Positions 15,240 through 59,572 of a stretch of 64,000 nucleotides of DNA are shown here, in pieces (within the stretch, counting starts at the first letter, position 1; every line of letters starts with the position of its first letter). The position numbers and the translations under genes were made by a program. Source of the DNA: Termitomyces sp. T153 (lineage: Eukaryota; Basidiomycota; Agaricomycetes; Agaricales; Lyophyllaceae); NCBI GenBank assembly GCA_018296165.2, contig JACKQL020000001.1:2666001-2730000 (forward strand), written 5' to 3'. The notes beneath the pieces were generated by a model that was not told the DNA's origin, did not search any database, and saw nothing but the letters and a program-made list of their open reading frames with translations.

Positions 15240-15560
15240 CAAGATAGCAAGAAAATGGGGCCTGACCACCTCCTCACTCTCCCTCCTCTTTTGGAATCCT
15301 CTGCACTATACCTCTAATGAAATTGACCTCCATCTGGGCAACCACCACACTCAGGACCTCTGGTTGCCTTGGTAGGGGCTCCCTCATGTCAGTTACCACC
15401 TCCCACCATACTCTGGGGACCGCTGCACTCCTCTGCCAGTGCCCTGACAACAGCCATCCCATCTATCAGAATCCCTGCTCTAACTCTGGAGAGAGTTCTC
15501 CAGGCATCTGTACTAGCCTATCCTGAATTAAGGCATGAGTGGCTGATGCTCCATTGAGGA
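15240..15560 (-). pseudogene. Remnant of the family 1 antisense gene (last exon)
   Basis: Minus-strand reading gives GHWQRSAAVPRVWWEV and PLPRQPEVLSVVVAQMEVNF, aligned with the last exon of the antisense gene in element B (HWRRAMADLGAWWEV, PLPGHPEVLAMVVAQLEVDL). Only the C-terminal part remains; the piece upstream lies beyond the solo LTR at 16808-16907. Confidence 0.7.
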
Positions 15561-15659
15561 GAATGCAGTGCTGTTGGACCTAGTCTAAACAGCTTCTGTC
15601 AGTAGGATCAGAGGAACAAGAAACAAAAGGACTCATGTATTATTCCTTTTCACCCTGAG

Positions 15660-26926: not shown

Positions 26927-28100
26927 TGTCAGGTTCTGCTGACCATGGGGGCTCAGCTGCACTGGGAAAATCCTTACTAGACAGACATGATTCCCTGCAC
27001 TGATACCTGGGCACTTGGAGAAGTTTTAAATGTGGGGGACTTGCAAGAATAAGTGATGGGAAGTGATCCAAGCAAGTCCAGAGTAGTCCAGAGGGGTGTA
27101 GAATAAGTTGCAGGGAAGGGACAAGCTTGGCAGAGTGTCAGGTATGAGTCTGTAAGCAAGTATTATAGGTGCAGAGGAAGTGGAGGCTACATGAGTGATG
27201 GGAGCAGAGCTAGAGCTTGATGGGGGATCAATGGAAGTTGATGGAGTTTGGGGCCAAGTGAGTAGCAAGGTCTGGAGTTGGTTTAAAGAATGTTTGAGGT
27301 TTGTAATTATAATTGCAGAGTTTGTGAAGGCATTAAGGTTGAAGGGGACTTGGGCACAATGAAGGAAATAGATCAATCAAGACAAGATGGAGCTGAACAG
27401 AATGAGGTGGAGTCAAGATAAGACTGAGATGAAATGAGAATAGATCCAGGTGGAGATACAAGATGATAATGAGAACAATAATGGAATAGAGATGAGACAA
27501 GACTGGGAAACTGAGATAAGACCAGGAGACTGAGAGTAAGGAAAACGTAACATGGAACACAAAACACAAGAGAGAAACAATCAGACCATAGGTAATGCAA
27601 TATCAAGACTAGAGTATGAGGAGCTACTCTATGACTTATATACTGACTACTGGGGTGCTCTGGGGGACAGCAGGTGTGGCAGTGGGGCTTGGCAGAGCTC
27701 AGCAGAGTCAACAGGTGTCAGTTGTGATCAGAGAGCAGGCTACATTGATATCTTGATGGGATCAGTTGGGAACACAGGCCATCCCAAGGTTGTCATAATA
27801 CTCTGGAGTGGGTTGGGGGAACCAGGGTGATGGGCTAGTGATGTATGACAGAGTCAGGAATGGCAGGGGATGGTTCCAGGGGCTCAGAAGAGCCAGGGGA
27901 AGTGTTGGTGGCTGCAGAGAAGATGTTGGAGTTGGCCAGGGGGCTATTGGGATTTGCTGGAGAAGTGTCAGAGTTATCCAGAGTGGGTGTGGAGGGCATA
28001 CAATAGTTGAGGGGTTTGAGGGGGCATTGGGAGGGGGGAAACTCTGGGGAAGTGAGTGGGCTGGGAATGGGGTTGGGAGTCCAGGGAGCAGGTCATGACA
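26927..28100 (-). repeat. 3' LTR of element F (family 1, minus)
   Basis: TGTCAGG at 26927 to CATGACA at 28100, 1174 bp. The internal side is followed by TCACTCCCCCTTCAGC (28101-28116), the complement of a polypurine tract, so it is a 3' LTR and not solo. AATATCAAGACT at 27599-27610 is intact. The 5 bases before it are CCTTC. Confidence 0.88.
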
Positions 28101-28312
28101 TCACTCCCCCTTCAGCATTGAGACTCTTGAGACACAGGACACAGGTTGGGAGTTGGCAGGGTGTGGGAATCAAAGCCAAATAATATTGATTAAACTGCAG
28201 TGAGTGGCAGTGGCATGGGGAAACAAAGTTGAAGCATGGCCGCCATTTGTCAGGGGGCTCTTCCCAAGTCATTAAAAGGTCAGATGTACCCCAGGGCTCC
28301 TAAATCTTTGCC

Positions 28313-28726
28313 ATGTCTTCTGTTGTGCCATCATCATGTTCTCCATTGCCAACTGCACCCCCTTCAGAAGATAACCATGTGGCTATTTGGGCAGAGTACA
28401 AGTGTCACTGGCAGGAGTTTGAGCAGTGGTGGAACCATAGGAGGGTAGATGCAATGACCCATTGTTGTGAGTGCAGTGTTTTTTCATTGCTCTGGAGTCA
28501 CTAATTGAGTTCAGCAGAGTTGTCCTCAGCAGTGGTGGGTTCATCTGGGGGTTTTTTGTGCATGAGGGGGTTGGGGCCTGCTGGCCATTCAGTTCCTGTT
28601 GCCCTGGAGCATTCTGCAAGGCCCAGTCTGGGGGCAGGGATCATCCATGTTGTTCTAGAGGCAGAGAGGATTCCACAGGTGCAAGTGACACTGGAGATAT
28701 TTGCAGGGGTGCTGGAGCAGGCATAG
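28313..28726 (+). pseudogene. Antisense gene of element F, first two exons
   Basis: Opposite strand to F. Exon 1 begins MSSVVPSSCSPLPTAPPSED and ends near 28467; an intron with donor GTGAGT (28468) and acceptor ...TTCAGCAG precedes exon 2, which reads LSSAVVGSSGG and ends GVLEQA. The intron sits at the same place as in B and D (before a LSAVVAGSSG block), although the protein is clearly diverged. The Cys6 exon is missing because F is broken off at ~28840. Confidence 0.6.
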
Positions 28727-28769
28727 TGTAAGGGCAATTTCTGGTGCAGTGGATTGGAGTCATGCAGCT

Positions 28770-34158: not shown

Positions 34159-35880
34159 ATGTCATCTTCCACATACTCTCCAGCAGCGTCCCCATCCCCC
34201 TCAGCACATACCTTGATTTCTTCCTCTGAGGATTCTGAGGATTGGTGGGACTATAGGTGGGTCCAGGCAATGTACTATAGTCATAAGTGCTGTCCCTTAC
34301 TTGTCATGGCTGGAGTGCTGATTAAGTCCCATCAGAGTTGTCAGTGGCAGTGGCAGGCCCCTCAGAGCTTTTGTTGGGGGAGGCCCCAGTGCAGTTGGTG
34401 GTAGAAGCAGTCCCCACTTCTCATTCCAGGCCTGGTATTGGCCCTAGGGTGGTCCACTCTGTCCCTATGGGATTGAGAGTCGCACAGGCAGACATGATGC
34501 CAGAGCACTTTGCAGAGGCTGTGTGGCAGGCAAGGGGTCCCCCAATATTAGAGTGGTGTCAGGCAGTGGCCCCAGTGCATCACTGGCATGTCCCTTCCTT
34601 ATTGAGCTAACCTACGTCTCTAGTGCATGTCCTGTACCCAGTGGAGTGAACAGTGTGAGGTTGAGGAGCCCATGCTAGGAGTGTGGTGGGACATGTCAGT
34701 GTGTCTCCTGTGTCACTTGCAGCACGAGAAGTGCTCTGTCACTCTGAGTTGGCATGCTGCTTGCATTGCAGCAGAGCAGGGGTGGGACTGCAAATGGGTC
34801 ATCATGCAGTTGGAGGAGGGTCAGAGGGGTAGGGTGTTGGGGTGGGGTTCTGGGGTAGAGGAGAGAGTTGGCATGGGGCAGCCCCCAATGAAAGTTGGGC
34901 CCCCACAGGGTGGGCAGAGGGAGGGGGCCCCTGTGGCATATGACAAGGGTAAGCGGAGAGCATCCCCCTTGCCAGAGGTGGGGCCTAGCAAGCGGGCACA
35001 GGGGGAGCCAGTGATGGTGGGCCCTCCAGGTTCCACGGTGTATTCCCCAATTTCTGGGGCCTTGGTTGAGCAGTCTGTAGGAGGATTATAGTTGGCTACC
35101 AAGGCTTTTCTGCAGTGTCAGGTGGAGGAGTTGGAGTGGTCATTGGCCACACTTGGAGAGGAAGCTTGTAGAATGGGGGAGGAGAGGGACAGGTTTTGAA
35201 AGGAGCTGGATGGGGCTTGGAGGGAGTGGGACTTGGTATGTAGGGATAAGGACATTGCCATGGGGGCCGCCACAGAATGATTGTCACAGCTTCAAGAGCT
35301 GCAAGCACGTATAAAGCCATTGAAGGCATGGGCAGGGATGGCAGAGCAGCAGTTGGAGGGGTTAGGAGTGTGGCGGACTCAGCAGGGGCCTGGTGTGGAG
35401 GTGACCTGAGCAATGGCAGAGAGGGTGCAGTGGCAGGAGGAGTGGCTCGCCAATGAGGCGGCCTTGGGGCAGCAGAGAGTGCTCTGTAAGTGCTTCCTTC
35501 ATTTCCTATTTTCTATGAGCTGATTTCCACAGACTAGGCCAGGGAGCACTGCATTCTCCTTGATGGAGCATTGGCAGCACTGGAGTTCATCCATGACAGG
35601 TTGGCGAGGATGCCCAGGGATCTCCTGCTGGAGTTGGGGCAGGGGGTCATGCAGATGGGGCATTTGCTGGCAGGTCATTGGCAGAGGGTGATAGCAGACC
35701 CCAGAGCATAGTAGGAGGTGGCAATGGACGTGGTGGAGCCACTCCCAGGGCATCCCAAAATTCTGGCAACAGTAGTAGTGCAACTGGAGGTGGATCTGGT
35801 GGGGAGGATAGCAGAGGTGGAGTTGGAGGGAGAGGGGGAGTAGGGGCTTTCTTGAACTGGTCTTCTTGTGCTCCAAGCCT
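34159..35880 (+). pseudogene. Antisense gene of element D (Cys6 cluster, charged helix)
   Basis: Encoded on the strand opposite to D. Starts MSSSTYSPAASPSP with a Ser/Glu-rich exon; the first donor is decayed (ATAAGT for GTAAGT), acceptor ...CCCATCAG; exon 2 reads LSVAVAGPSELLLGEAPVQL to CQAVAPVHHWH. A 34-bp intron (GTCCCTTCC...CTAAC...CTCTAG) leads to the cluster exon: CMSCTQWSEQC, then CLLCHLQHEKC, that is C-x2-C-x6-C-x15-C-x2-C-x6-C, followed by WHAACIAAEQGWDCKWV. A Pro/Gly-rich linker, a charged helical part (EELEW, EERDR, LQELQA) and, after another GTAAGT...CACAG intron (from 35487), a last exon with GHPKILATVVVQLEVDL. Three or more stops break it. Confidence 0.75.
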
Positions 35881-48650: not shown

Positions 48651-48655
48651 CCACT

Positions 48656-49607
48656 TGTCACGACCTGCTCCCTAGACCCTGACACCACCCCCAGCCCCTC
48701 TCCTTCAATGCTCCGCCAAACTCCCCAACCCTCGCCCACCCTCTGCACCCACTTCAGGCAACTCCAACACTTCTTCAGCAGACCCTGACGGCTCCTTGAT
48801 CAACTCCGATGCCTTCTCCACAGCAGTTGATGCATCCCCTGAATTCCCCTGGACTCCCAAGGCTTTCCCCGACGCTGGAACGATCCACTTTCCAACTGAT
48901 CCCATCAGAATGTCACCGTGGCCCATTCCAAGATCGCACCCAACAACCATCAACTCCGCGCAGTTCCATCAAGCCGCTGCCATATCCTCTGCCCTCTGGA
49001 GCCACCCAGTATTAGGTATATAAGTCATAGAAGAACCCCTAGTACTTTAGTCTTGATATTGCATTTACCAGTTTCCCATGTCTTGTCTTTTGTCTCATCC
49101 CTGTCTCTATTTTTAGTTTTGAATCTATCTCTGTTCTCTGTCTCATCTCGCTTTGTCTCCGCCTTGTCTCGACCGTGTATAGTTCCTTTGTCTTCCTAAG
49201 TCCCTTTCATCCCCAATGATAGTACAAACTCTGCGCGCGTGCTATGACCCGAACATTTCTACGACAACCCTGGACCTCGCTCCCGCTCGGCCCAGGAACA
49301 CCTCACATCTTGGTGATCTCCTGTTAAACCTCTGGCTCTGCCCCCATCAACCGTGAAGCCCCCGATTACCCCGCATTCTAATTGCACGCCCATAAACTTG
49401 CTCCAGCACCCGCCTGGGTCCAACAACAAGTATACTTGATCTTAGACGCCCCCGAGCCGCTCCGGACTTGCTCAGACTGCCCCTAGCTTCCCCTTGCAAG
49501 TCCCTCCATGTCAATACTGGATGCTTGGTTATAAGTGCAGGACATTGCATCCACCTAGTAAGGACTTGCCAGTGTAGCTGAGCCCCCATCTTCAGCAGAA
49601 CCTGACA
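48656..49607 (+). repeat. 5' LTR of element B
   Basis: 952 bp. TATATAA at 49017-49023; the predicted transcript start, ~30 bp on, falls at the conserved AGTCTTGATATT block (49049-49060), which defines the U3/R border. Confidence 0.93.
49017..49060 (+). promoter_or_regulatory. LTR promoter: TATA box and R start of element B
   Basis: TATATAA at 49017-49023 and, 32 bp from its first base, AGTCTTGATATT. The same pair with similar spacing is in every family 1 LTR of the window (for example TATATAAGACATAGAG followed by CTCTAGTCTTGATATT). The transcript start is inferred from the spacing. Confidence 0.65.
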
Positions 49608-49608
49608 T

Positions 49609-49620
49609 AATATCAAGACT
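49609..49620 (+). other. Self-priming primer-binding site of element B
   Basis: AATATCAAGACT, one base after the 5' LTR, is the exact reverse complement of 49049-49060 at the start of R. This is the arrangement used by Tf1/sushi-type chromoviruses that prime from their own folded mRNA. Confidence 0.78.
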
Positions 49621-49639
49621 CCCCCTTACCCCATTCTCA

Positions 49640-52100
49640 ATGTCTGCGTATAACCCCGCATACAACCCCACCGGCTACCTAACCGACGTCTATGGTTGAC
49701 CGGTACTGGAAAACCCCTACGCCCTGTTCTATCCAGGCCCTCCCACGGATCAGTACATCCCCCGTCACTGGACCCCTGACCCCAACCAGGCATTCTACGC
49801 CCCCTCCATCAGCCAGGGAATACCTCTGGGCTGGTGCTGCCCTCCCGCATTCTCTGCCGATGGCAACAACCCCTGCCTGTACCCTGGGGGGTATTCCTGG
49901 CGCCCCCAACCCTGCCTACCTTCTCCCCGCCCACTACTACGCATACCCAGTCCCCGCTGCAGCCCCGACCCCTCCGGAGCCTATGGACAATTATTCCCCT
50001 CCTTGTATGCCAATCCCCACCCAAGCCCCTCCTTCTCCCAGGCAGCAAAGGGTCAAAGTCTATGCCCAACAACGCAATAAAGTCCTTCACTTCCTCCGCC
50101 TCTCTCCCGCAGAGTTTGCAAGATGCACCTGCACCCTCCTCACCAACCTAGGCTACCCCAACACCTCCGCGACTCCGGAAGTCTGGGTGGATCAACTCCT
50201 CAATTTCCATGAGCACTATCTGCAAGAAAACCTCCCAGAGACTATGCAAGGCACCCTGGGCATTGACAATAACTTATGGAATGAACTCCATGCATTGGTC
50301 GAACAAATCCACACCTGCCTAAACCCCCGCCCCTTTGAAGATCCTCTAGACCCTGCCCGCTCCTTCCATGTGCAATGTGGGGAGCCTGTCGGAACACGAA
50401 GCAAAGCCCTGCCTTCTGTTCCCTGTCAGCAGGAAGAACTCAATGCGGCCTCTAGCATCTTGAGAAACCTCAACCCCATGGGGGGATTGTTTGATCAACC
50501 AGCCGCCCATACCTTGGTCCTCTCCGCTCACCCTCAGGCCAACTCCGTCCCCAGCGCCTTCCAAACCTGGGACCAGCCCGCCATCTCTGAATCTTGCCCC
50601 CAATGGCCGCCCCCATGCATTGATGACAACAACCGGACTCTCTCCTACATTGACGAGCCTGGTAACCCTGCCAACGAGCATGCCCCATGCAACTGACCTC
50701 CACAAGACTGACCCCCCCACTTCAACCTCTGCGCCCCTCATGTCAATGCCCCTCCACCCCGTTCCAACGCCCTGGTCCCTCTGCAACAGCCCATGGGTCC
50801 CGGGGCGCCCCGACTACCCTTCCTTACCAACCATCCTCATCCCTTGCCTGCTCCACTGCCTGACCCTCCTGCCGACGCAAATTATTTTGGACCCCCCACC
50901 TCTGGAAGACCCCCTCGATGGGCCCCAGGGCCCACCCCGGGCAACATGGGTCAACCCCCGGGCAGAGGGCCACCCAACGGCAGACCCCCTGGGGGATGGG
51001 GCCCAGCAATGGACAACTTCCCTCCCCAGCATGGAAACGGGAACAACTACTATTACTACTACAACGCCAGACCCCCGCCCCGAGCTCAAAATCCACAGGA
51101 CGATACCCGTGACGCACTGGCCCGGGAGGGTAAGCTTGACATTCAGAAATCCAAAACCTTTACTGGCCATGACTCCCAGAAGTAGCGAATCTTTCTAACC
51201 CAGTGCCTGACTATGTTCCAAGCTAAGCCGATTACCTTCCAACTTGAGAGCTCACGAGTGGCCTTTGCTGCGTCATATTTACAGGGTATTGCCTTTGATT
51301 ATTACACCGCGCTACTCTGGTTCGACCCCAACAGCCCTGTGCTCTCCAATTGGCTTGCTTTCACTCAGGAATTCTCAAGTAAGTTTGGTGTCTTTGACAC
51401 TGTAGCGGAGGCAGAGGAAAATCTCTTCAACCTCTGAATGCACGACAACAAATGCTTCATGACCTTTATTGTACGGTTTGAACAGGAAGCCTATGAGACC
51501 GGCTGGAACTACAATGCTTTCCAATTCGCCCTCCATCGCGCCCTGCCCCAACAAATCAAGGATGTCCTTTGCCTTGCACCCAAGCAAACCACCTACAATG
51601 GGTACAAGGCGCTTGTTACCCAGGTCAACCAACATTACTGGGAAGATCGCAGCGAAAACATGGCACTCTGGACCCCCTGGAACGCCTCTGGTAACACCAA
51701 CTGGCAGGCCGGAGCGACCAACAGCATTCGGTCCTCAATCCCCACTAACCCCGCCAACCCCGCACCCCGTTTTCCCTCAGACCAAGGGATTACCAGCACC
51801 AACCTACCCCAGGGGCAGCGTCCACCAGCCCAGCTCAATGCCACCGACCTCCATGAAACCCCAGAACCCTTGGACACCAACCCCAATGACCACGATGACA
51901 TTCCGGACCCCGCCAACAACCAGGAAGCCTGATGCGCAAACCAGATCCAGGATAGCCCATGGATCAACGTGCCGGAGAAAACGCAGAAGAAACAATGGAA
52001 GGAGGGTGTGTGCATCCTATGTGGTGAGCAGGGACACTTTATTCACAGTTGTCCCAAACAACAGGTGATGGGACGTGCCATATAGATGATCAACGGAGAA
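49640..52100 (+). pseudogene. gag of element B with zinc knuckle
   Basis: ATG at 49640 (MSAYNPAYNPTGYLTD). A small frameshift near 49895 moves the reading to the frame of PNPAYLLPAHYYAYPVPAAA, then QRVKVYAQQRNKVLHFLRL, ETMQGTLGIDNNLWNELHAL, a Pro-rich linker with a Tyr run (NGNNYYYYYNARP) and the main gag domain 51213-51725 (FQLESSRVAFAASYLQGIAF, WQAGATN). An in-frame TGA follows ENLFNL (51435-51437). CCHC knuckle CILCGEQGHFIHSC at 52011-52052. Capsid and nucleic-acid binding roles. Confidence 0.88.
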
Positions 52101-52139
52101 GACTGTAACTACCAGTTTATGGAAAACGAGTCAGCGGTT

Positions 52140-53330
52140 TAGGTCTTGAAGACGCACTAGACTGCAGACCAAACCCTGACGTCTTCTCCGCCCTGGCCAC
52201 ACTCCTCCGCGCAACAATACTCGCCCCGGACAACCCCCCAGTACATCTCCCTTCCCACTCATCCACCAACCTCCTTCTCCGCACCACTCTCCCCTTCACC
52301 ACCAACCCCGTCCCCACACTAGTCGACAGCGGCGCCACCAACAACTTCATCGATGAATTCCTGGCAGCGCTTGCTCCCCACCCCCTCCGACGCCTCCCCG
52401 CCCTGATCCCCCTCAAACTTTTTGATGGAGACCCCACCCCAGCAGGAGACATCACACACTGCCTGGAAACGACCATGACCTTTGCCAATGGACGACAGCA
52501 AGAACTCCGACTACTTATCACCAAATTACACCCCTCCACCCCTGTTGTCTTAGGATTCTCATGGCTCTGTTCCACTAATCCCCACATCGACTGGCCCAGC
52601 CTCACCCTCCGCCTTGACTGGGACAACCCCACCAACTCTGGGCTGGTACCTTTTGATGTCTCACCCTCCTCCGAGAACTCCGAGGCCACAATCGACCATC
52701 CCTGAACTCCTCCGCAGCTCTGCTCTAGATCCACATAGTCGTTCATTATCAATGTCCAACTCAACGACCCTTCTAAGGTATTCCCTGCCCTTGTTGACAG
52801 TGGCGCCTCCAGCACCTTTGTTAGTAACCAGCTTGGCCTCTGGCACAACGACCTCGACAGACCCCTCGAGCTCCAACTCTTTGATGGGAGCCCTGCCATG
52901 ACAAGGATCATGCAATACCACGACAACACCCTCACTCTCGACATTGACCTGCAGTTTCAGGCCCAGCTCCTCATCACCCAAGTACCTCCACCAACTCCAA
53001 TTGTGCTCAGACTCCCGTGGTTACAAGACGTCAACCCCGACATTGACTGGAAGGACCTCACCATGCAATTCCCTGGCCCCAAAGTGAGTTTAGCAGCTGC
53101 CATCCGCCTCCGCCTCCAGTCTATCCCGGACTCCGACATCTCCCATCCTGGCGCCAGCACCTCCAGAGCAACCCAGAATCCCTCAACCTCCGATGACAAC
53201 CCCGACAACAAAGGAGACGCCACTCCGCCTCAGTCACCCTCAATCACATTATGATGGCTGCCTCCCAACATACTCCGAAATCGATACAAAGGGCTGTGGT
53301 ACCCCAACCAGCGATGTTCAAGGTCCCCAA
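52140..53330 (+). pseudogene. Tandem aspartic proteases of element B
   Basis: Protease 1: VPTLVDSGATNNFIDEFLAA (LVDSGAT at 52319-52339), LKLFDGDPTPAGDITH, LRLLITKLHPSTPVVLGFSW and NPHIDWPSL. Protease 2 about 150 codons on: FPALVDSGASSTFVSNQLGL (LVDSGAS at 52790-52810), LELQLFDGSPA, FQAQLLITQVPPPTPIVL, LPWLQDVNPDIDWKDL. Both catalytic Asp are present. Between the two lie two stops (in the TIDHP-stop and RST-stop region). Two DSG domains could pair with each other as a covalent dimer, since retropepsins work as dimers; this is inference. Confidence 0.85.
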
Positions 53331-53371
53331 CCAACTCTGCCACCACTCCAGACTCACCCGCTACCACTCTG

Positions 53372-54990
53372 ATGTCCAACTCCGTCGACCCCAGATGCCT
53401 CAACATTAAAATTGTCGGCGCCTTTCCCTTTGCACGCCTTCTACAAGACGGCACCCCTGCCTTTCAGCTACAAATCATGCCAGCCCTACCCGAGGAGCAC
53501 CTCCGCACAGGGACTACTGCGCCGGAGAGCAAAACGGAGGAACAGATCCTATCCGAAGTAGTTCCCCCAGAGTATCATGAGTTTGCTGATGTGTTCTCTG
53601 AAGGGAGTGCCAAAGAACTTCCCCCACACCGCTCCTACAACCACAAGATCGACCTCAAGGAGGGTACCTCACCCCCATTTGGCAAGATCTACAACATGTC
53701 TGAGGTTGAGCTCCAAGCCTTAAAGGAATACCTCAACAACATGCTCAGCAAGGGCTTCATACGCCCATCAATCTCCGCCGCCAGCGCTCCGGTCTTGTTT
53801 GCCAAAAAGAAGGATGGGTCCCTCCAACTCTGTGTGGATTATCGGGGGCTCAACAAAGTCACCAAAAAGAACTGGTATCCCCTCTCCTTGATCAGAGACC
53901 TTGTTGATCGTCTCCACAGTGCCAAGATTTACACAAAGATAGACCTCCACTCTGGCTACAACAACGTCCGGATCGCTCTGGGACATGAATGGAAGACCGC
54001 CTTTTGCACCCGCTATGGCCTCTTTGAGTACCTCATAATGCCCTTTGGAATGACTAACTCCTCCGCCACTTTTCAGTACTTCATGAACAACATCTTCCAC
54101 GACATGAATGACATTTTTGTTATTGTATACCTGGACAACATCCTGATCTACCTGAATTCGCCGAGAGAACATCCAGAGCACGTCTGCCACGTTTTAGAAC
54201 AACTCCGAGAGTACCACCTTCACGCCAAACCCAAGAAATGCTCCTTCCACACGATGGAGGTCGAATATCTTGGAGTTGTCGTCACCCCTGATGGTGTGCG
54301 CATGGACCTCGCCAAGGTTGACGCAGTACTCAACTGGCCCCCGCCACGGAACATCAAGGAGGTACAGTCATTCCTGGGGTTTGCTAACTTTTATCGCCAT
54401 TTCATTGACAACTACTCCAGGATCACCAAACCCCTCAACTGACTCACATGGAAGGACACCCTTTGGGATTGGAACAGCAAGTGCCAGAGCATATTCCGCC
54501 TCCTGAAGAGGGCCTTCACCTCTGCTCCAGTCCTCCACCATTTTGACCCCTCCCTGCTGATCATGCTCGAGTGCAATGCCTCCGACTACGCTATCGCTGG
54601 AATACTCTCCTAATCAGACTCTGGATGCAAGGACCTGTGCCCCATTGCCTTCTACACCTGCTCAATGATCCTTGCAGAGCTCAACTATGACATCTACAAC
54701 AAGGAACTCCTTGCAATTGTCAAAGCCTTCCATCAGTGGCAGGCCTACCTCAAGGGATCCCCACACCACATTCAAGTATACTCCAACCACAACAACCTGC
54801 AATACTTCACAACCACAAAACAGCTCAGCTGCTGCCAAGCCCAATGGTCTGAAACCCTCTTGGAGTACAACTTCACCATCCACTACTGCCCCAGGCAACT
54901 TGGCGTGAAGCCTGACGCCCTCACTCAAAGATCCAACATGTACCCAAAAAAGTCATTTGAAGCTGAATGGAATGCATTCAACCATTGAGT
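53372..54990 (+). pseudogene. Reverse transcriptase and RNase H of element B
   Basis: Open from 53372 to 54442: [113 protein letters not shown] (54128-54139), VEYLGVVVTPDGVRMD, SFLGFANFYRHFIDNYS. The catalytic YLDD is YLDN (GACGAC to GACAAC). RNase H follows with LECNASDYAIAGILS-stop and [46 protein letters not shown]. The RT is expected to be inactive. Confidence 0.9.
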
Positions 54991-56060
54991 GGGAATCCCC
55001 CCCGAACATCTACATGCCGTGCTGATTTTAAATGAAGAAGGAATCCTCCAACAAATCAGAAATTCACCCCCGGACTCCTTCTTCACCCAACACGACCCCC
55101 GCAACAACCCCAAAGAGTTGAGCGCCGGGAACCCCTTTTCACTGTCTCCAGACCACCGCCTCCTGCTCTGGAGTGGACGGATTTATGCCCCGGACCACAA
55201 GTCCATCTGCCTCAACATACTCCGGCAGCACCATGACCATAAGCTCTGAGGGCACCCAGGAATTTGTAAGACCCTTCAACTCATCTCCTGGACTTACTTC
55301 TGGCCAGGAATGAAAAAGGACGTCATGCGATACGTAAGGGCCTGCGAACCCTGCCTCTGGGCCAAGGTACCCTGTCACCACCCCCATGGATTGTTGAAAC
55401 CCCTCCCTGTCAGCCACCACCCCTGGTCCTCCCTATCAATGGATCATATTGTCAAACTCTCCGATTCCAAAGGTTTTAACACAATCCTCATTGTCATTTG
55501 CCACCTCACCAAGCAAGCCCTCTTCATCCCCTGCCACACCACCAACAATGCTCTGGAGTTCGCCATACTGTTTCTCGAACACGTATTCTCCAAGCACGGA
55601 CTCCCAGATGACATCGTCTCTGACCGCAGACCCCTGTTTGTATCCCACTTTTGGCAGTTGCTATGCAGGGCGCTCAAGATCAAAACCAACCTCTCCACTG
55701 CCTATCACCTGGAGACTGATGGACAAACAGAACAAGTGAACCAGACACTGGAGCAGTATCTCCACCTATATGTTAACTATTTACAGAACAACTGGCGTGC
55801 AGAACTCCCCCTCGCCGAATTCACCTACAACAACACGCCCCACTCCGCCACTGGAGTCTCCCCCTTCTACACCAACAAAGGCTATAACCCCCAACTCACC
55901 CTGTCCCTGAAGGACATCCCCTCCCACGCCACCCATGAAGTCACCGAGGACCTCTGATCCCTTCACCAATTTCTCTGGGACGAGATCAACACCGCCAATC
56001 AAGCCTACTCCAAACATGCAACGCCTGATGCGACCCCACCCCTGACTGGCCTCCTGGCAC
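54991..56060 (+). pseudogene. Integrase of element B
   Basis: H2C2 part: ILRQHHDHKL-stop-GHPG, LISWTYFWPGMKKDVM, RACEPCLWAK. Core: SMDHIVKLSDSKGFNTILIV (first Asp), LPDDIVSDRRPLFVSHFW (second Asp), [20 protein letters not shown] (Glu). Then [36 protein letters not shown]. Open over 55310-55957. All three catalytic acids are present. Confidence 0.9.
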
Positions 56061-56500
56061 CTTGGTTTGGCTCGATTGACACAACCTCAAGACCCGGAGG
56101 CCCTTCATCAAACTAGACCACAAGCACCTCAGTCCTTTCAAAGTCCTCTGGAAGGTCTCCATGCACGCCTATAAACTTGACCTACCTCCGGGCTTGAAAG
56201 GCCTCCACCCCGTGTTCCACGTTTGACTCCTTGAAAGGCATGCCCTGGACCCCTTCCCTGGCCAGCACCACAGCTGACCACCCCCCGTCGAGGTCGAGGA
56301 CAAGTACTGCTATGAGGTCAACCAGATCCTCGACTCCCGCTTGGTCTGTGGACGACCCCAGTACTTGGTCCGCTGGAAAGGCTATGGACCTGAGGATGAC
56401 ACATAGGAGCCCCAAAAAAACCTTGACAGAGCCCCCGACAAACTCCGGAACTTCCATCGACAACACCCCACCAAGCCCCAGGACCTCCGGGACTAGCAAG
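56061..56500 (+). pseudogene. Integrase C-terminus and chromodomain of element B
   Basis: APWFGSIDTTSRPG-type remnants of the barrel region, then KVSMHAYKLDLPPGLKGLHP, and the chromodomain: [31 protein letters not shown], a TAG at 56404-56406 where Trp is usual, then EPQKNLDRAPDKLRNFH. Chromodomains at this place steer chromovirus integration. Frameshifts precede it. Confidence 0.85.
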
Positions 56501-56689
56501 TGCAGATGGCATCAGTAGGCATAACCCCCACCTCTGGATTTATCAGGGATTCAACCCTCATGAGTACTCCCCTACGTGTTTTCACTTACTTTGCCCCCCA
56601 CTCATTCTGAAAACTTCTCACGCTCAGTAGAAATGCAGAGTCCAATGTTAATAAGACTACAAATACAAAATATAGGAACAAGGGAGTGC

Positions 56690-58407
56690 GGGGCAACGAG
56701 ACACCGGAATCCAGGAAGCTCCTGCTCCCCCTCCCCCCCTGAGTCTGCCTCCACAATCCTTCCCACCAGATCCACCTCCAGCTGCGCTACTACCATCGCC
56801 AGGACTTCGGGATGCCCTGGGAGCGGCTCTGCCATGTCCACCGCCACCTCCCACCACGCTCCGAGGTCTGCCATTGCCCTCCGCCAATGTCCCACCAGCA
56901 GATGCCCCATCTGCATGACCACCTGCCCCAACTCTGGTGAGAGATCCCTGGGCATCCTTGCCAGCCCGTTGTAAATGGACCCCAGCACTGCTGATGCTCT
57001 GTCGAGGAGGATGCAATGCTCCCTGGCCCAGTCTACAGAATCGAATGTCAGCTCGTAGTAAACAGGAAATGAAAGGGGCACTTATGGAGCACTCCCCACT
57101 GCCCCAAGGCTGCCTCGTTGGTAAGCCACTCTTCCTGCCGCTACGCCCTCTCTGCCATTGCTCGGGTCACCTCTGCACTGGGCCCCCGCTGAGTTCCCTG
57201 CATCCCTGACCCCTCTGATCATTGCCCCGCCGCCTGCGCCTCCAACAGCCTCATGTATGCTCGCAACTCTTGAAGCTGCAACAGTCGCTCCATGGCAGTC
57301 CCCATGGCGATATCTTTATCCCTATGCGCCAAGTCCCATTCCTTCTGAGCCTCGTCCAGTTCCCTCCAAAACCCATCCCTCTCCTCCCCCACCCTATGGA
57401 CTTCCTCCCTGTGTGTGGCCAACAGCCTCTCCAACTCCTCTGCCCAATGCCGCAGGAAAGCCTTGACAATCAACCACAACCCTCCTGCAGATGGCTCAAC
57501 CAAGGTCCCAGAAGTTGGGAAATACACCGTAGGACTGGGAGGGCCCACCAACGCCGGCTCCCCCCATGCCCACTTGCTAGGCCCCACCTCCGGCAAGGGG
57601 GACACCTTCCATTTACCCTTGTCGTGCGTCGCAGGGGCCCCCTCCCTCCGCCCACCCTGCGGAGGCCCAATCTTCATTGGGGGCCACCTTGTGCCAACCC
57701 CCCCCTCCACCCCAGAACCCCTCCCTGAGACCCTACCCCTCTGACCCTCCTCCAACTGCATTGCAACCCATTTGCAATCCCACCCCTGTTCTGCTGCAAT
57801 GCAAGCGGCATGCCAACTCAGAGTGACAGAGCACTTCTTGTGCCACGAGCGACATGGGAGACACACTAATGTATCCCGCTGCACTCCTAGCATGGGCTCC
57901 TCAAACTTGCACTGTTCACCCTGCTGGGTACAGGATGCGCACTAGAAATGTGGGTTAGTTCGATAGGGAAGGAACATGCCAATGATGCACTGGGGCCACT
58001 GCCTGACACCACTCCAACGTCGGGGGACCTCTTGCTTGCCCTGCGGCCTCTGCAAAGTACTCCAGCATCACGTCTGCCTGCGCGACTCTCAACCCCATAG
58101 GGATGGGGCAGACCACCCTGGGGGCCATACCAGACCTGGAGCGAGAAGCGAGGACCATCTCCCCTGCCAACTGCGCTGGAACCTCCCCCAATGTAGGCCC
58201 CGAAGAGCCCGCCACCACCGCTGACAACTCTGACAGGGCTTATTCAAGCACTCCAGCCATGACGAGTAAGAGATGGTACTTACGACTATGATACATTGCC
58301 TGCACCTGCCTATGGTCTTGCCAACCCTCAGAGTCCTCTGAGGAAGAAGTTGAGGTATGTGCCAATGGGGAGGGGGATGCTGCTGGAGAATATGTGGAAG
58401 ACGACAT
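56690..58407 (-). pseudogene. Antisense gene of element B (Cys6 cluster, coiled coil)
   Basis: Opposite strand to gag-pol, between chromodomain and PPT. Exon 1 58407-58284 (MSSSTYSPAASPSP..., Ser/Glu-rich), intron 58283-58230 (GTAAGT...CAG), exon 2 58229-57976 (LSAVVAGSSGPTLGEVP to CQAVAPVHHWH), intron 57975-57942 (34 bp, branch-like CTAAC), exon 3 from 57941: CASCTQQGEQC then CLPCRSWHKKC, that is C-x2-C-x6-C-x15-C-x2-C-x6-C, close to the fungal Zn2Cys6 plan but with a longer loop. Then WHAACIAAEQGWDCKWV, a Pro/Gly-rich linker and a charged helix (57450-57230: AEELERLLATHREEVHRVGE...). After a decayed donor (ATAAGT, ~57088) a last exon has REHCILLDRASAVLG and GHWRRAMADLGAWWEV. At least two stops (for example at 57219). 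Role unknown; nucleic-acid binding is a guess from the cluster. Confidence 0.8.
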
Positions 58408-58603
58408 TGGAAAAGTTTGCGAGTCCCAGAGTACATCTGATCCTTTTCAATGACTAGGAAAGAACCCCCTGAGCGGCGGTCATGCTTCGACTTCATTCCC
58501 CATGCTGCTGCCGCTACTGCGGTCTGATCAATATTGCTCGACTTCAATTCCCATGCCCCACCAATCCCCGAACTGTACCCCATGTCTCGAGGGTCTTGAC
58601 ACT

Positions 58604-58616
58604 GAAGGGGGGGTGA
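58604..58616 (+). other. Polypurine tract of element B
   Basis: GAAGGGGGGGTGA directly before the 3' LTR; primer for plus-strand DNA synthesis. The complementary form is next to the 3' LTRs of D and F. Confidence 0.85.
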
Positions 58617-59567
58617 TGTCACAACCCACTCCCTAGACTCTGACACCGCCCCCAGCCCCCCCCTTCAATGCTCCACCAAACTCCCCAACCCTCGCCCACC
58701 CTCCGTGCCCACTTTGGGCAACTCTGACACTTCTTCAGCAGACCCCAATGGCTCCTTGATCAACTCCGATGCCTTCTCCACAGCAGTTGATGCATCCCCT
58801 GAATTCCCCTGGACTCCCAAGGCTTTCCCCGACTCTGGAACGATCCACTTTCCAACTGATCCCATCAGAATGTCACTGCAGCCCGTTCCAAGATTGCACC
58901 TGACAACTGTCAACTCTGCGCAGTTCCATCAAGCCGCTGCCATATCCTCTGCCCTCTGGAGCTGCCCAGTAGTAGGTATATAAGTCATAGAAGAACCCCT
59001 AGTACTTTAGACTTGATATTGCATTTACCGGTTTCCCATGTCTTGTCTTTCATCTCATCCCTGTCTCTATTTTTAGTTTCAAATCTATCTCTGTTCTCTG
59101 TCTCATCTCACCTTGTCTCCACCTCGTCTCGACCGTGTATAGTTCCTTTGTCTTCCTAAGTCCCTTTCATCCCCAACAACAGTACGAACTCTGTGCGTGT
59201 GCTATGACCCAAACATTTCTACGACAACCCTGGACCTCGCTCCCGCTCAGCCCAGAAACACCTCACATCTTGGCGATCTCCCGTCAAACCTCTGGCTCCA
59301 CCCCCATCAACCATGAAGCCCCCAATTACCCCGCATTCTAATTGCATGCCCACAAACTTGCTCTAGCACCCGCCCGGGTCCAACAACAAGTATACTTGAT
59401 CTTAGACACCCCCGAGCCGCTCCGGACTTGCTCAGACCACCCCTAGCTCCCCCTTGCAAGTCCCTCCGCATCAATACCCGATGCTTGGTTATGAGCGCAG
59501 GACATTGTGTCCGCCTAGTAAGGACTTGCCAGTGTAGCTGAGCCCCCATCGTTAGTGGAACCTGACA
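58617..59567 (+). repeat. 3' LTR of element B
   Basis: 951 bp, TGTCACA...CCTGACA, pairs with 48656-49607. Confidence 0.94.
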
Positions 59568-59572
59568 CCACT

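Follow-up and report, generated by a model that had tools for sequence, protein, structure and literature searches.

An LTR-retroelement family of Termitomyces carries a selected antisense gene with three predicted introns, whose predicted nuclear, dimeric, zinc-cluster-like product probably regulates its own element

Does the strand opposite pol in a fungal Ty3/gypsy element encode a protein that selection has kept, and, if so, what might that protein do for the element? The question arises in a window of 64,000 nucleotides from Termitomyces sp. T153 (contig JACKQL020000001.1), where an earlier note had described an accessory gene with a six-cysteine (Cys6) block antisense to pol in two elements, D and B. 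Element D (48656..59567, + strand) is an LTR retroelement of the Ty3/gypsy chromovirus type: its LTRs (48656-49607 and 58617-59567, ~950 bp each), whose ends TGTCAC..CTGACA are of the TG..CA form, share 91.6% identity over 952 alignment columns and are flanked by a 5-bp target duplication, CCACT, read from the sequence at 48651-48655 and 59568-59572. The same strand holds ORFs for reverse transcriptase (53255..54442; RVT_1, E 4.2e-34) and integrase (55250..55957; Integrase_H2C2, E 1.1e-13, with rve at 25.6 bits missing its cut-off of 32.6), a chromodomain at the end of pol (approximately 56290..56450; recognised as a motif, with one stop in D, the homologous stretch in the relative L083 matching Chromo PF00385 at E 1.8e-18) and, ahead of the 3' LTR, a polypurine tract (58604..58616, GAAGGGGGGGTGA) kept across subfamilies. 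Element B is oriented the other way from D and has its copy of the antisense gene at 34159..35813 (+), with the Cys6 block at 34624-34734; the exons, intron positions, Cys6 block and charged helical region that the note had seen as common to the two are indeed present in both. Tblastn with the related protein P0001 recovers two remnants besides: exon 4 only, in a third element (15301..15579, -; 56% identity), and the exon 1/2 region in a further one (28095..28768, +; 52% over 42 aa and 29% over 184 aa).

The antisense gene of D runs from 58407 to 56725 on the - strand, between the chromodomain and the polypurine tract, and its structure, as predicted from splice signals and frame, comprises four exons and three short introns of the form GT..YAG. 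Exon 1 (58284..58407) opens with the ATG at 58407 and is followed by intron 1 (58230..58283; GTAAGT..CAG), exon 2 (57991..58229), intron 2 (57942..57990; 49 nt, with a CpG-decayed GTGCAT donor, a CTAAC box and a TAG acceptor), exon 3 (57086..57941), intron 3 (57033..57085; its donor CpG-decayed in D) and exon 4 (56725..57032), which encodes a conserved helical C-terminus. Joined at these junctions, the exons form a single reading frame. The D copy is itself decayed, with exon 3 a net 6 nt shorter and interrupted by two stops and with the usual terminal stop gone.

Across the genome searched (72.4 Mb, assembled into 307 contigs) candidate copies number in the hundreds and fall into at least four subfamilies. 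From 65 D-like places 60 were retrieved, one of them D itself; an alignment of the other 59 with D and B has 61 rows. L045 is the sole open row (510 aa when spliced, no stop), all the rest meeting an earlier stop or a frameshift; with the spliced frame broken in 60 of the 61 rows, nothing indicates present-day activity of these copies. Through most of the gene, stops are scarce in the antisense frames that the exon model requires (53 rows, after eight badly aligned rows had been dropped). The exception is the stretch at about 57300-57165, where stops in the coding frame reach a density of ~0.5-1.4 per 30 codons and are fewer in another antisense frame; in many copies these stops are attributed to CGA decaying to TGA. 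Donors and acceptors are likewise conserved unless a CpG spanning the exon/intron border has been lost to decay. CTAGTG is the intron 2 acceptor in 58 of the 61 rows; at the intron 3 donor, 30 rows have GTAAGT and 24 have ATAAGT. The donors of introns 1 and 3 follow an exon-final C, so that the heavy CpG decay of D-like copies (L010-L068) destroys them.

Other subfamilies bear directly on intron 2, which the note had read as a 34-bp intron with a CTAAC box. The acceptor and the box stand; the donor does not, the true one lying 15 nt upstream and giving 49 nt, and since these 15 nt are in frame the reading frame is unaffected. This donor would have been GTGCGT before CpG decay, and all 16 readable loci from two further subfamilies have GTGAGT at that position; the 34-bp version was rejected on that ground. 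At the identical codon boundary an intron 2 of different sequence is found in ten P0003-like and six P0098-like loci (a seventh P0098-like locus gave no match). A pattern scan of the P0003-like loci places intron 1 at the same position in 7/10, the three misses being decayed donors, and intron 3 in 8/10; among the P0098-like loci the patterns matched in 0/6 and 1/6, respectively. L073, L074 and L078 are left out of this splice table, and the start of the Cys block went unrecognised in L074 and L077. In the public Termitomyces proteins P0001, P0002 and P0003, ..AVAL or ..AAAL runs straight into CASC, in agreement with the 49-nt intron; other public gene models deviate, P0033 having six residues more and P0016 and P0059 omitting part of the Cys6 block.

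Whether this frame has been under selection was judged from dN/dS (NG86) over exon 3, and since D- and B-type copies are CpG-decayed the comparison was made with the younger P0003-like subfamily. The first set consisted of chosen copies with few stops (seven of ten P0003-like, 12 D-like and six B-like, L051 and L052 missing), and a repeat took every usable exon 3 (nine of ten P0003-like, since L080 has a frameshift, and every D- or B-like row of usable length, 34 in total). Between young and D copies the antisense frame gives 0.23 (84 pairs, chosen) and 0.24 (234 pairs, all usable), and between young and B copies 0.26 in both sets (42 and 72 pairs). The four other frames give 0.92, 1.10, 1.19 and 1.37 for chosen young and D copies and 0.87-1.31 for all usable ones; with CpG changes masked the antisense frame falls to 0.20, against 1.06-1.62. 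A ratio near 1 among young copies had been named in the note as a result that would speak against the gene, and the values found within the young subfamily are 0.35 (21 pairs, chosen) and 0.39 (36 pairs, all usable). The contrast between frames is weaker among the decayed copies, as decay after insertion predicts: 0.42 versus 0.57-0.78 for D with B, and a weak 0.54 versus 0.61-0.81 within D. By the author's criterion ~57% of pairwise differences (53 rows) fall in CpG to TpG/CpA columns, and CpG observed/expected is 0.40 in D versus 0.78-0.97 in three young copies; the decay may be RIP-like.

As a yardstick, integrase-chromodomain codons of seven young loci compared with D give 0.13, or 0.09 with CpG masked; the antisense gene is thus clearly constrained, though less so than pol. 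The P0116-like subfamily, over ~200 codons, gives 0.29 (15 pairs, six copies) against 1.5-1.8 in the four other frames; its six copies were drawn from places listed as stop-free, so that their lack of stops is itself no evidence, and four of ten P0098-like loci were used in the same analysis. A chance ORF was rejected on the frame-specific pattern of stops and the dN/dS of the antisense frame. The antisense gene, then, is almost certainly real, selected and protein-coding, and the note's accessory intron-bearing gene opposite pol is borne out by the purifying selection on its frame.

The product would consist, in order, of a Ser/Pro-rich N-terminus, the Cys6 block, a bipartite NLS-like box, a long helix and the helical C-terminus. 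The Cys6 block (57831..57941, -, within exon 3) has the spacing C-x2-C-x6-C-x15-C-x2-C-x6-C that the note gave for D and B, and its six cysteine columns are conserved at 96-100% against a mean column of 77% in 25 chosen copies. A seventh cysteine, 46 columns past the first in exon 3 (AxCIAAEQGWD), is present in all 25 of these copies, conserved like the six of the block. Membership of the Zn2Cys6 family, with which the note had compared the block, did not hold up: against a PF00172 gathering score of 21 bits, exon 3 of D scores 8.7 bits and L045 nothing, and in ten proteins the score is 10.6-12 bits in four with none listed in six, so that all tabulated scores lie at 8.7-12 bits; among 30 members nine match at E<=1, the best at E 0.017. 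The halves also match the profile, weakly, in swapped order, the second half aligning with profile positions 2-15 (D, P0003, P0008) and the first with 13-35 (P0098, P0051). Of 215 proteins collected, 53 have the block in full; in 52 of them, as in D and B, the loop is x15 and falls outside the x5-12 plan that the note had cited, and a single protein, P0098, has x10, inside that plan. Because it scores below the cut-off and its halves match in swapped order, the block is, as judged from its residues, Zn2Cys6-like and not a filed PF00172 member, with zinc binding predicted.

The NLS-like box, of predicted nuclear-localisation role (57561..57614, -), reads KWKVSPLPEVGPSKWAWG in the decayed D and KRRASPSPEAGPSKRARG in copy L083; it occurs in 23 of 26 loci of other subfamilies, in the strict KR..KRxR form in 8 of 26. 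Behind it stands a predicted long coiled coil (approximately 57220..57476, -), homologous to a helix that AF2 models in P0003 at residues 272-369 (~97 residues; pLDDT 92-96 over residues 281-360). The AF2 models further propose a short helix after each CxxC and a helical C-terminus, with low confidence overall (pLDDT 54 and 58) and in the Cys6 region (46-62). Fold searches with these models gave no match at E<=0.001, sequence searches of the PDB gave weak unrelated matches only, an NCBIfam search gave no lead, and the 14 Pfam families listed across 30 members do not include the TRP28 family (PF04195).

The gene is carried by elements of more than one kind. The places scored were the best 40 D-like of 500 candidates, 84 P0003-like of 2955, 90 P0098-like of 3176 and 118 P0116-like of 2283 (these lists may overlap), and 45 of the 84 best-scored P0003-like places are stop-free by the author's count. 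Each of the ten P0003-like loci fetched has, on the other strand, a match to D's integrase-chromodomain stretch, with DNA identity of 80-83%; D and these ten loci show every feature of aORF-3R genes, namely opposite strand, the interval between pol and the 3' LTR, retention and constraint. Two pol-less elements show the strand and LTR features only. One is a P0116-like carrier on C16, with LTRs of 97.4% identity over 1165 bp and ~3.8 kb between them, the antisense gene inside (one copy); the other is P0098-like, on C28, where an LTR pair of 91.6% over 547 bp encloses the gene (one copy). Tblastn with the four D gag/PR/RT/IN ORFs found no gag or pol match in either, and Pfam found no family in six ORFs of L090 and three of L089 (part of the interior only); unfiltered tblastx gave scattered short matches, at E down to 1e-11 against L090, read by the author as compositional. 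An LTR pair without gag or pol, as in non-autonomous (LARD-like) elements, is thus seen in one P0116-like and one P0098-like copy. The L090/L091 element (G000 C16:753828-759923) is young, and its Cys6-less antisense gene is its sole recognised gene; a thiolase-like coding sequence, recognised by eye, lies outside its 5' LTR.

In the six P0116-like copies read, the Cys6 block is absent, PK being joined straight to GKGASS, while the KRRA..PSKRPRG box is retained, as is the C-terminus in one copy read through to its end. As the block is present in three other subfamilies, it was presumably lost here and not never gained; since the Cys6-less subfamily is still constrained, the block is dispensable, at least there. 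Protein relatives come from Termitomyces sp. T112, Mn162, J132 and 'cryptogamus', none beyond Termitomyces being among the matches listed in the three protein searches (~8000 candidates scored in each of two, one of which listed 120 of 155). The listed relatives are filed as hypothetical proteins, and one model, P0102 (Termitomyces sp. T112 E4T56_gene4306), seemingly fuses parts of two antisense-gene subfamilies. Many copies lie at a near-constant distance from contig ends, near 1.6 kb on C181, C112, C241, C109, C289 and C10 and near 3.9 kb on C52, C284, C32, C39, C85 and C98, which suggests that contigs break within elements or that elements sit at true ends.

Upstream of the gene, between the polypurine tract and the ATG and ~120 nt from the latter, an 11-bp block, AATATTGATCA (58525..58535, -), forms a candidate element: among 24 upstream regions that represent four subfamilies (D and B counted as one), 23 have it unaltered and L087 has one change (L073, L074, L077, L078 and L084 are left out of this alignment). 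The block may serve as an antisense core promoter or a binding site, or it may take part in second-strand priming. From these parts a working mechanism may be proposed. An antisense promoter in the 3' LTR or the ~210-bp leader would start an mRNA from which the three introns would be spliced; the protein would enter the nucleus through its KRR..KRxR box, pair via the coiled coil and contact element DNA with the Cys6 block, the leader block being a candidate site. The introns would persist because the RNA that replicates is the sense strand, on which they are no introns, and if they survive in this way the gene must have an antisense transcript of its own. By the general logic of retrotransposition, the presence of the introns would also exclude copying of the antisense mRNA. 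The family's selected antisense gene would thus encode a predicted nuclear, dimeric, zinc-cluster-like protein, and by analogy it probably regulates the transcription of its own element.

Several other explanations must be set against this one. That the true coding frame lies on the sense strand, which the note had named as a rival account of the conservation, merits next to no credence: the sense frame S1 does show dN/dS of 0.37-0.39 (0.33 in the P0116-like set), a low ratio that arises because S1 has the same third positions as the antisense frame, and all three sense frames have at least three stops in exon 3 in each of eight copies checked (three or four in S1), five of these copies being antisense-intact there, while the splice signals suit the antisense strand. 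Sense-strand coding was accordingly rejected for D and the P0003-like copies checked, where every sense frame has stops; across the gene in one P0116-like copy a sense frame stays open for 359 aa, and the strand argument in that subfamily therefore rests on homology to the others and on the dN/dS ratio. Another possibility is that the antisense RNA matters, through dsRNA or siRNA control, and that the ORF is incidental. For plant elements, one source (PMC7264820, in the part available) discusses such antisense control; here this reading is strongly disfavoured by stop-free copies, conserved splice signals and antisense dN/dS of 0.20-0.39 against about 0.86-1.6 in the four other frames over the comparisons with young copies.

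A host origin, whether as a captured gene in passive cargo or as a host repressor domesticated against the elements, would suit the intron-bearing, host-like structure and the confinement of listed protein matches to Termitomyces. It is nonetheless improbable, since passive cargo predicts dN/dS near 1, since presence and constraint in several diverged subfamilies argue against recent transduction, and since the gene lies inside an LTR element wherever its surroundings were examined (D, ten P0003-like, one P0098-like and one P0116-like). A selected antisense gene whose product acts in the particle or in integration, as a Gag or integrase partner, chaperone or tether, and not in transcription, is unlikely but has points in its favour: the coiled coil and helical C-terminal part are kept where Cys6 is missing, and the two examined elements without detectable gag or pol retain the gene, as an aid to trans-packaging could be retained. 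Against it stand the NLS-like box and Cys6 block, the organisation of the gene as a separate antisense expression unit, when particle proteins are normally made from sense RNA, and the Pfam and fold searches, neither of which gave a particle protein above its cut-off. Regulation of the element's own transcription thus remains the preferred reading. A bolder extension of it, a "fungal HBZ", is doubtful: the one selected gene shared by an LTR superfamily would encode, on the antisense strand, a nuclear regulator whose zinc cluster is rearranged, pol-bearing elements would carry the DNA-contacting form, pol-less ones would also have spread a Cys6-less partner capable of dimerisation only, and autonomous elements and their parasites would contest one LTR switch.

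The gene has a wider bearing. Antisense accessory genes of LTR elements are already known as a class, described with function unknown in the part of the source available (PMC7264820), and the intron-bearing Cys6 form is a variant of which a literature search (open-licence papers; titles and starts of abstracts) returned no account. Here such a gene is multi-exon, under measured purifying selection and made of recognisable parts; carriers with and without pol, and with and without Cys6, form a natural set for testing what it does for a retroelement. The gene suggests that introns on the antisense strand can outlast retrotransposition; it is also a warning that Termitomyces 'hypothetical proteins' include at least some element genes.

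Parallels may be struck with several known systems. In fungal regulators of the Gal4 type, two C-x2-C-x6-C halves supply the six cysteines, and a basic box and a coiled coil come after them. The present protein resembles these regulators in its Cys6 halves with a basic box and predicted coiled coil behind, and differs in the sub-cut-off Pfam score, the x15 loop of most members, the swapped halves and the fungal regulatory middle domain, which is not among the Pfam matches listed.

Among elements, Boty of Botrytis cinerea is similarly a fungal chromodomain-bearing gag-pol element with an antisense gene, brtn, between pol and the 3' LTR, as the available parts of the sources describe it (PMC7264820, PMC8365987, PMC4227169). 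It is an ascomycete element, whereas the present family has three predicted introns, the Cys6 block, several subfamilies and pol-less carriers. The plant aORF-3R genes—gene23 of Grande, that of RIRE2, TRP28 of Retand and ORF2 of PvRetro13—come with indications of nuclear or DNA-binding products, and some Retand elements are non-autonomous (PMC7264820, PMC11963269, in the parts available). Place, orientation and retention in most copies are shared with them; they differ in having other domains, with no zinc-cluster-like block found in those parts of the sources.

A possible functional model is HBZ of HTLV-1, a spliced antisense gene read from the 3' LTR side whose nuclear product represses the 5' LTR, while APH-2, -3 and -4 of HTLV-2/3/4 are natural forms without the bZIP domain (PMC10186651, in the part available). 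HTLV is an animal retrovirus and a relation in sequence is not claimed; the likeness was judged from gene position, splice signals and the NLS-like box, with function predicted. Seen along these lines, the Cys6-less subfamily parallels the bZIP-less APH proteins.
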